From the NCBI GenBank assembly GCA_944390025.1, contig CALXOK010000003.1, forward strand, positions 62,001 through 126,000: a stretch of 64,000 bases of DNA, in the 5' to 3' direction. A program made the position numbers and the translations under genes. The notes beneath the pieces were generated by a model. It was not told where the DNA came from. It made no database searches and was given only the letters and a program-made list of their open reading frames with translations. Below, in pieces: positions 39,455-57,750 of the stretch (the stretch's first letter is position 1; each line of letters starts with the position of its first letter). Source of the DNA: an uncultured Spirochaetales bacterium. GTDB taxonomy: Bacteria > Spirochaetota > Spirochaetia > Sphaerochaetales > Sphaerochaetaceae.

Positions 39455-40406
39455 TTCCTCTCCTCCCTCTGTTGACATAAATGAAAAGAATGACGGCAGA
39501 TACCATCATCAGGAAACAGAAAACCTGTCCTTTTGAAATATTCAGGAAGGACCCGAAAAGCGCGATGTTGCCGCTTCCTTCCCCAAGGCTGATCACATAG
39601 CCGATGTTGGCATCCGGCTGACGGCAGTATTCTATGAAAAAGCGGAAAAAGCCGTATCCGAAAATGTAAAACGACAGCATGGAACCGCTCTTCAGGGAAT
39701 ATTTTCTTACTAAAGGCCTCATTATGAACCACAGAATGAGGAAAAGCACAATTCCTTCAAAAAAGGCCTCATACAGCTGGGAAGGATGCCGCGGCAGGTT
39801 AATCATCTGGGGCGTGATATAACTCATGCCATGTGCGTCTGCAACCTGCCTCACCCATTCCTGTGATGTTGAGAAAGAAGGAGCTGACGGGAAGACCATG
39901 CCCCAGGGCTTTGTTGTCACCCGGCCGTAAAGCTCCCCGTTGATGAAGTTGCCAAGGCGTCCGAAGGTGTAGCCAAGAGGGATTCCTGCAACGATGTAGT
40001 CAACATATTTGAGGAAATCAATCTTCTTGTATCTCGCATAAAGGTAGCCGGCAACAAGCGCTCCCACCACACCGCCATGGTAGCTCATGCCGGGAAGGCC
40101 TACGAACTCTCCGTTCCTGAAAGGCCAGAAGATGAGCCAGGGATGGGAAAGATAATAGCCCGCATCGCTGTAAAACAGGACAGAGAACAGGTGTGCTCCT
40201 ATTAAAAGCCCGATAACTCCCCACATGAAAAGCATCTGGCTTGTATCATCATCAAGTTCGTTTTTCTTGTCCTTCTTCAGCTGCCAGCGGTAAAGTGCAT
40301 ATGCGATTGCAAAGGCCACAAGATACATAACCGCATACCACCTGACAGGCAGAAAGGACACTACATAAGGATCCAGCCAAGACGGATAATCGATATAAAG
40401 AGGCAT
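39420..40406 (-). CDS. lgt: Prolipoprotein diacylglyceryl transferase
   Basis: A 328-aa inner-membrane enzyme that attaches diacylglycerol to the lipobox cysteine of prolipoproteins. Signatures: MSYHGG (His110), FGRLGNFINGELYGR (149-163, catalytic Arg150) and HPSQLYEA; seven predicted helices. There is no ribosome site: TTGACC-17-TAAACT ends 6 nt before the ATG, so the mRNA should be leaderless. Divergent from the protease gene with the two -35 boxes touching. Lipoproteins are abundant in spirochaetes. Confidence 0.96.
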   Translation of the reverse strand: MPLYIDYPSWLDPYVVSFLPVRWYAVMYLVAFAIAYALYRWQLKKDKKNELDDDTSQMLFMWGVIGLLIGAHLFSVLFYSDAGYYLSHPWLIFWPFRNGEFVGLPGMSYHGGVVGALVAGYLYARYKKIDFLKYVDYIVAGIPLGYTFGRLGNFINGELYGRVTTKPWGMVFPSAPSFSTSQEWVRQVADAHGMSYITPQMINLPRHPSQLYEAFFEGIVLFLILWFIMRPLVRKYSLKSGSMLSFYIFGYGFFRFFIEYCRQPDANIGYVISLGEGSGNIALFGSFLNISKGQVFCFLMMVSAVILFIYVNRGRRGNGSRRNRKKTG

Positions 40407-40412
40407 GCATGA

Positions 40413-40441
40413 AGTTTAGCTGTTGCACAGGCACAGGTCAA
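40413..40441 (-). promoter_or_regulatory. lgt promoter, predicted leaderless
   Basis: Minus strand TTGACC (40441-40436), 17-bp spacer, TAAACT (40418-40413), six bases, ATG 40406. The -35 hexamer abuts the -35 of the opposite promoter. Confidence 0.7.
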
Positions 40442-40470
40442 TTGAAGGACTGCTCCGTTTTGTCTACACT
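40442..40470 (+). promoter_or_regulatory. Promoter of the C-terminal processing protease, predicted leaderless
   Basis: TTGAAG (40442-40447), 17-bp spacer, TACACT (40465-40470), six bases, ATG 40477. Back to back with the lgt promoter. Confidence 0.65.
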
Positions 40471-40476
40471 TGAGAC

Positions 40477-55723: not shown

Positions 55724-55999
55724 TCAGACAGCTGAGAACTGAAGCTTCACTGCTGATGAAGATGAGATGAAAGAATACTCTGTTGAGATCAGGCTGCCGT
55801 TCTCGTCATAAGCCTCAAAACTGACTCTGTCTGAGTTTGTTGAGACGTTGATTCTGTCATCTGAGACGTTGACATAGTTTCTCTCTGGAACATTTGCCAC
55901 CAGGTGGAGAGTAATGACATCCTTTGATGCGAACACTGAGGAGACTGAGAGGATTGCGAATATTGTAATCAGAATTGCTTTTCTTATAACTTTGTTCAT
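55724..55999 (-). CDS. Small exported protein, function unknown
   Basis: A 91-aa protein with a clear signal peptide (MNKVIRKAILITIFAILSV ... VFA, cleavage near residue 24) and a mature part of about 67 residues rich in Ser, Asn, Val and Asp, predicted to be all beta. No cysteine in the mature part and no lipobox. AAAGGA precedes the ATG. It is expressed alone between oriC and dnaA from a promoter covered by TTATGACATAAG-type palindromes, so it appears to be tightly regulated. I do not recognise a family. Confidence 0.75.
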   Translation of the reverse strand: MNKVIRKAILITIFAILSVSSVFASKDVITLHLVANVPERNYVNVSDDRINVSTNSDRVSFEAYDENGSLISTEYSFISSSSAVKLQFSAV

Positions 56000-56354
56000 T
56001 TTTTTACGTCCTTTGTTTTACTTACACCACCATTTATATAGAAAAGGAAAATAATAATCAAGCTAATTTTTTATAATATAAAGATTTAACTTATGACATA
56101 AGTTATAATGAACTCTGACTTAACTTATGACATAAGACAATGAAAAAGAAATGATTAACTAAGAAAATTTAAGTGAAATGTAAGAAGTTTTTTATTAAAA
56201 ATGCGAAAATTTGTGAAAAAAAGGCAAAAAAATATATGTCACAAGTTAACTTATGACATATGTCAAACATATGATAAAAAACAACTTAAAAAAACATATG
56301 ACACAATAAAATTCTTACATTATTGTAATAAAATAATTAAAAAATGTTATATGT
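56000..56354. promoter_or_regulatory. AT-rich control region with repeated TTATGACATAA palindromes
   Basis: No gene. AACTTATGACATAAGTT at 56088-56104 is a perfect 17-bp palindrome (8-bp arms, central A). Further copies: AACTTATGACATAAGAC at 56122-56138, AACTTATGACATATGTC at 56248-56264, an inverted partial copy (ATATGTCACAAGTT) at 56234-56247, and half-sites CATATGATA at 56269 and CATATGACACA at 56295. A possible promoter for the exported protein (minus strand TTATGT 56101-56096, TATTAT 56078-56073) has its -35 inside the first palindrome, so these are operator-like. Confidence 0.7.
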
Positions 56355-57713
56355 TTAGCGTGACTTTGAACGTATTGAAGTCTCAAGTGTGTCCAGAGAT
56401 GATGCAAGTTCTGAGTTCTGTTTCCTTTCTTTCTCAACTTTGTCTATGGAATGAGTGATAGTTGAGTGATCACGGTCAAAGTATGTTCCTATTTCAGTAG
56501 TTGAGTACTGTGTTATTCTGCGTGTCAGGTAGATTGCAGTGTTTCTCGCATCCTTTATGATTGCAGTTCTCTTCTTTCCCTTGATGTCACTGATATCGAT
56601 GTTGAAGTAAGAAGCCACTTCTTTGACGATTGTGCTTATTGATATATCCTGTTCGCCTGCCATAGGGCTTGAGATGATATTTTTAAGCTGCTCATGTGCG
56701 ATTTCAAGAGTGATGTCAGATTTGATGAGACTTGAATAGGCTATGAGGGTTGTAAGAGAACCTTCCAGGTCTCTCACATTTGTCTTGATATTCTCAGCAA
56801 TGTAGTCAAGGACGCTGTCCTTTATCTTCACACCCTTCTCTTCACACTTCTTTCTCAGAATGGCCACACGTGTCTCATAATCCGGTGCTGTCAGGTTTAT
56901 ATTGAGACCGCGGGTGAATCTTGATTTAAGGCGGTCTGTGAAGCCTTTGAGTTCGCTTATAGGCCTGTCGCAGGTGAATACAATCTGTTTGCTGGTCTCA
57001 TAGAGATCATTGAATGTATGGAAAAGCTCTTCCTGAGTCTGGATTTTCTTCTCAAGAAAGTGGATGTCATCAATAAGCAGAATGTCGGCCTTTCTGTATT
57101 TGATTCTGAACTGTGATGTGTTTTTGCTTGTCAGAGACTGTATATAGTCATTCAGGAAGGTTTCAGCCGTGACATAGACTACATTTTTTCTGGGATTCTC
57201 CTTTTCCACGTAATTTCCGATTGATTCAAGAAGATGAGTCTTTCCCAGACCTACTCCTCCATAGATGAGGCATGGGTTGTATGTCATACCCGGATTCATT
57301 GCAATAGCCTTTGCAGCATTATAGGCAAAGAGCGTGCTTTCACAGGGAATGAAACTTTCGAATGTGTAAACAGGATTGAGAAGGCTTTTTCTTTTCTTTG
57401 TATTGTCTTCTGCCTTTATCTGGTCTTCTGGTTCATCAACAGAATCCTCATCGGAAGAAGACAGTGTTGATTCATCACTTGAAATAACAGTCACAATGTG
57501 AATTTTCCTGCCGCTGAGTTCGTTTATGAGGTTAGAAGCTTCTGTAAGACAGAACTTCTCGAAATTTGATTTTGTCATGGCAGAATTACATGCCAGATAG
57601 AGAGTATCATTTTCCTCTCTGTCATAGCTGACAAAATCAAGCCACATGGTTTTTGCAGTCGGAAGAGCCTCATTAAGCTGTTCAAGTGTCTGGTACCAGA
57701 TTTTTTCGAGCAT
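56355..57713 (-). CDS. dnaA: Replication initiator DnaA
   Basis: A 452-aa AAA+ initiator. Domain I 1-75; acidic linker domain II (about 80-110); domain III with Walker A GGVGLGKTH (152-160), YVTAETFLNDY, DILLIDDIHFL and FTCDRPISELKGFTDRLKSRF; domain IV with the DNA-binding signature RDHSTITHSIDKV (414-426). No ribosome site: TTGCAA-18-TAATAT ends 7 nt before ATG 57713 (CATAAT at 16-bp spacing is an alternative), predicting leaderless translation. Confidence 0.97.
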   Translation of the reverse strand: MLEKIWYQTLEQLNEALPTAKTMWLDFVSYDREENDTLYLACNSAMTKSNFEKFCLTEASNLINELSGRKIHIVTVISSDESTLSSSDEDSVDEPEDQIKAEDNTKKRKSLLNPVYTFESFIPCESTLFAYNAAKAIAMNPGMTYNPCLIYGGVGLGKTHLLESIGNYVEKENPRKNVVYVTAETFLNDYIQSLTSKNTSQFRIKYRKADILLIDDIHFLEKKIQTQEELFHTFNDLYETSKQIVFTCDRPISELKGFTDRLKSRFTRGLNINLTAPDYETRVAILRKKCEEKGVKIKDSVLDYIAENIKTNVRDLEGSLTTLIAYSSLIKSDITLEIAHEQLKNIISSPMAGEQDISISTIVKEVASYFNIDISDIKGKKRTAIIKDARNTAIYLTRRITQYSTTEIGTYFDRDHSTITHSIDKVEKERKQNSELASSLDTLETSIRSKSR

Positions 57714-57720
57714 AACAATA

Positions 57721-57750
57721 ATATTATGAAGGTAAAAGCTAAATTTGCAA
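57721..57750 (-). promoter_or_regulatory. dnaA promoter, predicted leaderless
   Basis: Minus strand TTGCAA (57750-57745), 18-bp spacer, TAATAT (57726-57721), seven bases, ATG. No DnaA box is seen in it, unlike autoregulated dnaA promoters of enterobacteria. Confidence 0.6.

Follow-up and report, generated by a model that had tools for sequence, protein, structure and literature searches.

Predicted leaderless promoters fused to the start codon in a spirochaete genome

About a quarter of the units with a confidently recognised first gene in this spirochaete genome appear to begin their message at the first codon, with neither a leader nor a Shine-Dalgarno (SD) sequence. The promoters concerned are very probably leaderless promoters of the sigma-70 type, with the transcription start fused to the first codon. 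RNA polymerase would bind a -10 hexamer of the form TANNNT, whose last base lies 6–7 nt before the ATG, aided by a -35 box 17–18 nt further upstream or by an extended -10 element (TGn). We infer that transcription would begin at, or within ∼1 nt of, the A of the ATG, and that the AUG-first mRNA would presumably be taken up by the 70S ribosome at its 5′ AUG. As such an mRNA begins with AUG, its translation would have to proceed without an SD sequence. The class would serve genes that head transcription units, above all where two of them diverge over a short gap. The computed support consists of the position and spacing of the boxes, their association with a -35 box or TGn, the absence of SD sequences, the preference for ATG, the confinement to first genes, the conservation in orthologues and the enrichment in compact gaps.

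The window (the whole 64-kb stretch of DNA analysed) contains the six main promoters of the original prediction, those of parE, lgt, the S41 protease, dnaA, parA and a gene whose product is assigned by Pfam to DUF4143, all exactly as written (Table 1). Three of four weaker candidates, MATE, murA and the PEP-synthase-like fusion, could also be placed in the class. The fourth, a supposed nucleotidyltransferase gene at 45761, could not: CAGGAG lies between its distant TAAACT box and the ATG, and an SD-like tetramer is found at 10/10 aligned starts in the genus, which assigns the gene to the SD class. Its product is an APH-type phosphotransferase by Pfam, not a nucleotidyltransferase. The PEP-synthase-like gene and murA, described as having weak -35 boxes, indeed have no good -35 box, but both keep an extended -10. 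This TGn is retained in 16/16 genus loci of the former (read by eye) and in 12 of the 13 murA genus loci with the leaderless arrangement. The normal leaders named for gdhA, gpmI, perR, rpmH and gyrB were seen on the sequence. That of nifJ holds only if the start is the internal ATG at 12770, which is preceded by GGAG; the nifJ ORF as called begins one ATG too early.

Table 1. Predicted promoter elements in the 64-kb window. Two-part promoters are given as -35 box, spacer, -10 box, distance and start codon, as read on the window sequence.
Feature	Position	Strand	Remarks
lgt -35 box TTGACC	40436..40441	(-)	adjoins S41 -35 box; TTGACC-17-TAAACT-6-ATG
lgt -10 box TAAACT	40413..40418	(-)	6 nt from ATG at 40406; 8/8 genus loci
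S41 protease -35 box TTGAAG	40442..40447	(+)	TTGAAG-17-TACACT-6-ATG
S41 protease -10 box TACACT	40465..40470	(+)	6 nt from ATG at 40477
lgt/S41 divergent intergenic region, 70 bp	40407..40476	(.)	both predicted leaderless promoters back to back
parE -35 box TTGACC	23647..23652	(-)	TTGACC-18-TATAAT-6-ATG
parE -10 box TATAAT	23623..23628	(-)	6 nt from ATG at 23616
dnaA -35 box TTGCAA	57745..57750	(-)	TTGCAA-18-TAATAT-7-ATG
dnaA -10 box TAATAT	57721..57726	(-)	7 nt from ATG at 57713
parA -35-like TCGACA	63923..63928	(+)	within palindrome TGTCGACA; TCGACA-17-TATATT-7-ATG, spanning 63923-63961
parA -10 box TATATT	63946..63951	(+)	7 nt from ATG at 63959
DUF4143 gene -35 box TTGTCG	9099..9104	(-)	TTGTCG-17-TATCAT-7-ATG
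DUF4143 gene -10 box TATCAT	9076..9081	(-)	7 nt from ATG at 9068
PEP-synthase-like fusion extended -10 TGC-TATCAT	15007..15015	(+)	6 nt from ATG at 15022
murA extended -10 TGC-TATTCT	45685..45693	(-)	6 nt from ATG at 45678
MATE -10 box TATAAT	25496..25501	(-)	7 nt from ATG at 25488; the gene caller placed the start two codons later
Counter-example TAAACT	45734..45739	(+)	21 nt from ATG of SD-led APH-type kinase gene at 45761

The original prediction had suggested a genome-wide count of such -10 boxes against shuffled controls. We scored TANNNT hexamers ending 6–7 nt before the ATG of first-of-unit ATG genes, in the window and in an 800-kb sample of the same genome outside it. Outside the window, the motif is present at 52 of 261 genes, compared to 10.4 expected from dinucleotide shuffles (sd 3.1, maximum of 300 shuffles 19) and to a mean of 11.1 (maximum 18) at other offset pairs for the same genes. 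The window itself gave 7/21 against a mean of 0.9 at other offset pairs. Together these amount to 59/282 genes with a background of 11.9, such that ∼12 of the 59 matches are expected by chance from the offset control; the 59 less these ∼12 correspond to ∼7.5% of the 628 called genes. Head genes of divergent pairs are also rich in the motif (49/162 versus 4.7; same procedure, 17 other offset pairs, maximum 9), and ATG genes internal to operons are close to background (4/181, background 3.0). First-of-unit genes starting with GTG or TTG, whose start calls are less certain, also carry few matches (5/87, background 2.8; Fisher p = 0.0006 against the ATG genes). The reversed pattern T...AT is elevated at the same place as well (39 versus 15.2), as expected, because TATAAT-like hexamers also match it. 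A bare TANNNTN6ATG pattern shows no excess across the window as a whole (26 matches, 22.4 expected, with 23/100 shuffles reaching 26), and was abandoned as a measure because most of its matches fall inside genes. The exact consensus TTGACA-TATAAT-ATG, too strict a criterion, has 0 matches in the whole genome.

It is very improbable that the leaderless look is only apparent and arises from wrongly called starts, the real start being an SD-preceded ATG further downstream. nifJ is one such case in the window. However, the effect is undiminished where only one start codon is available between -90 and +30 (32/112 versus 4.3), and orthologue alignments open at the same ATG.

The class differs from other first genes in its promoter elements. 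The TTG of a -35 box stands 17 or 18 nt upstream of the -10 box in 25 of the 59 genes, with 0–3 occurrences at each other spacer length. TGn precedes the -10 box in 17/56 class genes, compared to 25/189 in the background (p = 0.0045), and 13/56 SD-less cases lack both TGn and any loose match to a -35 box. An SD tetramer is present in only 3/59 class genes versus 108/223 other first genes, and a pyrimidine occupies position -1 in 53/59 versus 143/223. Counted by distance to an in-frame ATG, two-part promoters occur 16 times at 6 nt, 27 times at 7 nt and 10 times at 8 nt, against a background of 3.2 per distance.

These distances bear on whether the message might instead start 1–4 nt upstream of the ATG, giving a very short leader and a translation much like that of other SD-less messages. 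Such near-leaderless starts are possible, if on balance unlikely. The 7- and 8-nt spacers are common relative to those of 6 nt, some dnaA orthologues (L086–L088) carry the -10 box ∼10 nt before the ATG, and starts in Leptospira are spread over 0–10 nt in the passages available (PMC5243855). Nevertheless, distances of 0–5 nt are nearly empty and those of 6–8 nt stand out, and the pyrimidine preference at -1 agrees with transcription beginning at the A of the ATG itself.

Conservation within the genus was assessed in part with a table of 15 genes, selected from 39–60 kb of the window rather than comprising every gene there, with orthologues lacking a usable start left out. In this table the arrangement is kept in 13/15 loci of murA and 9/10 of the S41 protease, and ten control genes gave 0 occurrences. 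In separate genus counts, it is kept in 16/16 loci of the PEP-synthase-like gene and 15/16 of parE (three of them with GATAAT), and the 6–7 nt spacing in 13/15 of parA. Across the family, lgt has the leaderless arrangement in 71/75 loci (null 4.8; 5/80 loci left out) and the S41 protease in 63/71 (null 8.4; 9/80 left out), loci being omitted for want of a hit or a start or for lying too close to a contig end. The S41 count tried starts within 60 nt, as a 120-nt limit, which gave 85/89, was too generous. The arrangement is found in only 5/15 loci of dnaA, in 7/16 of MATE and in 5/15 of pfkB; across the genus, dnaA and MATE do not belong stably to the class.

Orthologues hold the box and its distance to the ATG while the letters of the spacer drift. 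This pattern, together with an enrichment at exactly 6–7 nt that is limited to first genes, argues against the true promoters lying further upstream, with the boxes near the ATG being either AT-rich sequence that matches by chance or minor additional promoters of SD-less genes that have leaders. We consider this quite improbable, even though the offset control allows for chance among the candidates and long gaps, such as the 483 bp upstream of parE, could house another promoter; the lgt/S41 gap is too small to give each of its two genes a leader of its own. The conserved boxes could also serve not as a core promoter but as operators, or as an AT-rich element for ribosome binding. The perfect palindrome TGTCGACA at the -35 place of most parA orthologues would suit an operator. 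However, the boxes are accompanied by a -35 box at 17–18 nt or by TGn, and show only background counts within operons, whose internal genes would need a translation element as well; this reading is hardly probable at all.

The leaderless promoter reading is favored, and the tests of spacing, -35 box, SD, start codon, operon position and conservation support the prediction that two initiation classes probably coexist in this genome. The proposal that the -10 box is placed for a start on the A of the ATG or beside it, without an SD sequence, is likewise supported as an inference from the sequence. The emphasis placed on cell-cycle genes finds no support: the class includes dnaA, parE and parA but leaves out gyrB and dnaN. 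An informal scan covered 40 of the 76 candidate genes; those scanned are broad housekeeping and regulatory genes, and the leaderless-type genes look like general housekeeping rather than cell-cycle genes.

The class is concentrated where divergent genes lie close together. Gaps of 55–100 bp have 21/42 genes in the class, compared to 27/112 for gaps of at least 100 bp (Fisher p = 0.003); the effect is marginal in six other sampled genomes (7/24 versus 21/176, p = 0.05). In the lgt/S41 gap of exactly 70 bp, the two -35 boxes abut. Two promoters would fit in ∼70 bp (twice 35) because there is no leader. The link to compact gaps would provide a simple structural reason for the arrangement, the space saved between diverging genes, besides translational control.

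This lineage has more class genes than other genera of the family (59/282 versus 19/186, p = 0.002), and samples G022 and G123 of other genera are near background (3/55 versus 2.9 and 7/53 versus 5.9). An expansion of the class here is only suggestive, because the other samples are ∼220 kb each, with fewer genes for training the caller. It is an evenly balanced question whether leaderless initiation is an old, gene-specific, selected trait of this spirochaete family, whose class grew here as divergent gaps shrank toward the 70-bp limit while a core set (lgt, the S41 protease, parE, the PEP-synthase-like gene, murA and parA) was kept. If so, fused bidirectional leaderless promoters would be a recurring architectural unit.

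The core genes would keep a start-codon-fused promoter across species, and lgt and S41 would do so across genera, with SD-led neighbours. As the same genes are predicted to be leaderless over long evolutionary distances beside SD-led neighbours on one chromosome, the purpose of leaderless initiation can be asked. Bullifex porci, presumably cultured, appears to belong to the same genus, so the prediction is open to RNA-seq. Start-codon annotation in these genomes should be guided by the -10 box, not by SD sequences.

Natural leaderless genes are very few in E. coli. Leaderless genes have already been reported in spirochaetes, and therefore the present class belongs to a known kind, of which it is a new, well-conserved example. 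Zheng et al. 2011 (PMC3160421), in the passages available, describe TA-led bacterial genes with a signal ∼10 bp before the start codon and no SD sequence, list Spirochaetes with 6/18 genomes and a mean of 3.9% of genes (1.8–6.9), and note TG before the box in place of a -35 for some low-GC genomes. The TA-like signal, the lack of SD and the position in first genes of units are common to both sets; the share found here is slightly higher than that range, by a different method. Gene-by-gene conservation in spirochaetes and the divergent-gap effect come from the present analysis, and neither is in those passages of PMC3160421.

Leptospira interrogans, also a spirochaete, has ∼440 mRNAs with a 5′UTR of less than 10 nt, and the transcript start is the start codon in 184 genes at 30 °C and 170 at 37 °C, according to the parts of PMC5243855 consulted. 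Those starts were measured by dRNA-seq, whereas ours are predicted from sequence; the same parts give no promoter motif except sigma-54 sites, whereas -10, -35 and TGn elements are defined here. In Mycobacterium tuberculosis, again from passages of the source (PMC3898074), 26% of those genes for which a primary start is given are leaderless, with a TANNNT box, and closely spaced divergent promoters are said to be common. The box, the leaderless genes (predicted ones here) and the proximity of divergent promoters are shared. In contrast, M. tuberculosis uses ATG and GTG alike and no -35 motif was found there according to those passages, whereas here GTG/TTG genes are near background and the -35 box is clear. 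The preference for ATG agrees with the strict AUG requirement of E. coli leaderless genes, as cited in the same passages (PMC3898074). If Spirochaetes, unlike mycobacteria, need ATG, two kinds of leaderless translation would be set apart.

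This genome has a class of leaderless promoters, in which a -10 box (TANNNT) ends 6-7 nt before the ATG without a Shine-Dalgarno (SD) sequence; the transcription start itself at these promoters is one that we infer. The original prediction was right in substance, with one example wrong. All six of its main promoters (parE, lgt, the S41 protease, dnaA, parA and the DUF4143 gene) were found in the window with the spacings predicted. Three of its four weaker promoters (MATE, murA and the PEP-synthase-like fusion) are also present, whereas the gene at 45761 is SD-led. The name nucleotidyltransferase for this last gene was rejected in favor of the APH-type phosphotransferase identified by Pfam. 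Pfam also supports lgt, the S41 protease, an EPSP-synthase/MurA-type enzyme, DnaA, DUF4143, MatE and PfkB among the window proteins, and finds a PPDK_N domain in the PEP-synthase-like protein. By Pfam, the products of parE and gyrB are both gyrase-B-type proteins; the match of the parE protein to the gyrB and parE models falls short of the curated cut-offs, so the name parE is only that of the original prediction.

To assess enrichment, we drew 40 segments of 20 kb each from the same genome (1.83 Mb, 41 contigs, 85.6% complete; the window is G000:C3:62001-126000) and applied a simple coding-potential caller, blind to promoters when choosing starts. It called 672 genes, and for 628 of these a neighbor upstream was called as well. 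Of 282 ATG genes heading a transcription unit (first genes), 30 have a TANNNT beginning at -13 and 29 one beginning at -12, compared to ~6 at other offsets. The proposed genome-wide comparison with shuffled controls bore out the prediction: outside the window, 52 of 261 such genes carry the box, against 10.4 in dinucleotide shuffles (sd 3.1, maximum 19 of 300) and 11.1 (maximum 18) at other offset pairs of the same genes. Operon-internal ATG genes of this sample carry it in 4/181 cases (background 3.0), and first genes with GTG and TTG starts in 4/63 (1.8) and 1/24 (1.0), respectively. For genes with a single start codon between -90 and +30, the count is 32/112 (background 4.3, maximum 9). Divergent genes are the surest heads of transcription units; the box occurs in 42 of 162 when only the called start is considered (versus 3.2) and in 49 when any nearby in-frame ATG is allowed (control mean 4.7, maximum 9). 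The reversed pattern T...AT is likewise elevated (39 versus 15.2), because TATAAT-like boxes match it.

Among the 59 leaderless-type first genes, a -35 TTG lies 17 nt above the -10 box in 17 and 18 nt above it in 8, with 0-3 at other spacers from 12 to 23. An SD tetramer is found in 3/59, versus 108/223 other first genes and 129/181 operon-internal genes, and C or T directly precedes the ATG in 53/59 versus 143/223 other first genes. The 56 SD-less cases include 35 with a loosely defined -35 box (background 60/189, p = 7e-5), 17 with an extended -10 (TGn; background 25/189, p = 0.0045) and 13 with neither. Independently of called starts, two-part promoters precede an in-frame ATG by 6 nt in 16 cases, by 7 nt in 27 and by 8 nt in 10, compared to a background of 3.2; distances of 0-5 nt are rare (8 in total over six distances).

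Two findings are new here: particular genes keep the arrangement in their orthologues, and the class is associated with compact divergent gaps. Divergent genes separated by 55-100 bp are leaderless in 21/42 cases versus 27/112 at gaps of at least 100 bp (p = 0.003), or 20/42 versus 22/112 with called starts only (p = 0.001). The proportion is 1/8 at gaps below 55 bp, 20/209 for same-strand genes at gaps of at least 40, and 4/232 for operonic genes. In seven divergent pairs both genes are leaderless; the gaps between them measure 59, 68, 70, 79, 80, 93 and 249 bp. In six other sampled genomes pooled, the counts are 7/24 for compact versus 21/176 for wide gaps (p = 0.05). The lgt/S41 gap of the window is exactly 70 bp, or 2 x (6+6+17+6), and its two -35 boxes touch.

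Within the genus (where the genome of the window is itself among those counted, and related species do not give independent counts), the leaderless arrangement occurs in 8/8 loci for lgt, 9/10 for S41, 13/15 for murA, 13/15 for parA (one more with 8 nt), 7/16 for MATE and 5/15 for pfkB. At parE, TANNNT is found at the aligned start in 12/16 loci, GATAAT at 7 nt in three more (tally 15/16) and TATAAT at 8 nt in the sixteenth. The PEP-synthase-like gene is leaderless in 16/16 loci, each with TGn as read by eye, and two of these loci (L284 and L292) have identical upstream regions; TGn accompanies 12 of the 13 leaderless murA loci. This extended -10 offers an explanation for two of the genes to which the original prediction gave a weak -35 box. 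The genes rsmE, rbr, perR, jag, yidC, rnpA, dnaN, gyrB and those for a sigma-54 activator and the APH-type kinase are each leaderless in 0 of 7-15 genus loci. Features observed alongside are collected in the table; the parA palindrome may be an operator besides a -35 box, TGTTTCACGTGAAACA is the motif of the parS site, and the TTTTCAACA / TTTTCCACA clusters resemble DnaA boxes, possibly marking two origin-like regions.

Coordinates of sequence features observed near or among the leaderless-type genes
Coordinates	Position	Feature
window 7800-9068	window DUF4143 gene	DUF4143 AAA-type protein, leaderless-type promoter
L003:9125-10450	sampled stretch	as above
L009:4642-5928	sampled stretch	as above; three such proteins in the sample, all with promoters of this type
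window 43996-44330	beside murA	AT-rich cluster of TTTTCAACA / TTTTCCACA, both strands
window 55460-55670	between dnaN and dnaA	AT-rich cluster of TTTTCAACA / TTTTCCACA, both strands
window 56090-56300	downstream of dnaA	repeated near-palindromes of form CTTATGACATAAG, AT-rich DNA
window 62840-63559	upstream of parA	five TGTTTCACGTGAAACA matches, one perfect, rest 1-2 mismatches; 0.35 expected
window 63921-63928	parA -35 place	perfect palindrome TGTCGACA, kept in most genus orthologues
G029:C57:1921-4835	L292, a genus locus	PEP-synthase-like gene in two neighboring matches, one for residues 1-168 and one for 177-980; split gene or assembly error

The state of dnaA shifts. It is leaderless in 5/15 genus loci, and several siblings retain its -35/-10 pair (TTGCAA...CATAATAT) with a displaced start codon, 12-16 nt further down in L072-L074 and 12 nt further up in L071; L080-L084 have an SD leader. 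Outside the genus, dnaA is leaderless in L085, L089 and L090. As judged from these sequences, dnaA (L071-L090) shows how the class can change, by apparent switching between leaderless and leadered forms of the same promoter in close relatives.

NCBI places Bullifex in Spirochaetaceae; in GTDB, the family bears the name Sphaerochaetaceae. Among 80 named loci of the family, lgt is leaderless in 71/75 (null 4.8) and S41 in 63/71 (null 8.4). Both sides are leaderless in 68/89 divergent lgt/S41 pairs (some genomes counted twice), 51 of these 68 having gaps of 61-100 bp and one a gap of 2916 bp. No leaderless lgt was found in 18 loci from other families of the class, where SD-like starts are typical. 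Five loci from two other families (L181, L185, L186, L190 and L192) have an apparently leaderless S41 (TATATT-6-ATG), at most 15 nt from the aligned start. At the -35 place of S41, these five loci have a conserved GTGGTCAATA, which is the lgt -35 TTGACCAC in reverse complement. In samples of ~200-220 kb from genomes of other genera, first ATG genes carry the box in 6/54 (background 2.7; G002), 3/55 (2.9; G022), 10/77 (4.3; G091), 7/53 (5.9; G123), 4/32 (1.0; G107) and 5/34 (2.2; G124). By this crude measure, the class is therefore weak or absent outside the genus.

The original prediction placed several cell-cycle genes in the class, a theme not visible in the 40 of 76 candidate genes scanned for identity. 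These include glutamate-semialdehyde dehydrogenase, FolC, FolD, CutC-type, QueH, Ham1, exonuclease I, signal peptidase, AraC and TetR regulators, MatE and amino-acid transporters and, in addition to the one in the window, two DUF4143 proteins.

Our literature search found no paper combining "Sphaerochaeta" with "leaderless". A published survey gives leaderless genes in 6/18 Spirochaetes genomes, at 1.8-6.9% of genes, and links them to few operon-distal genes (Zheng et al. 2011, PMC3160421). Leaderless mRNAs have been measured in Leptospira (PMC5243855), and a figure of 26% is reported for M. tuberculosis, where close divergent promoters were also noted (PMC3898074).
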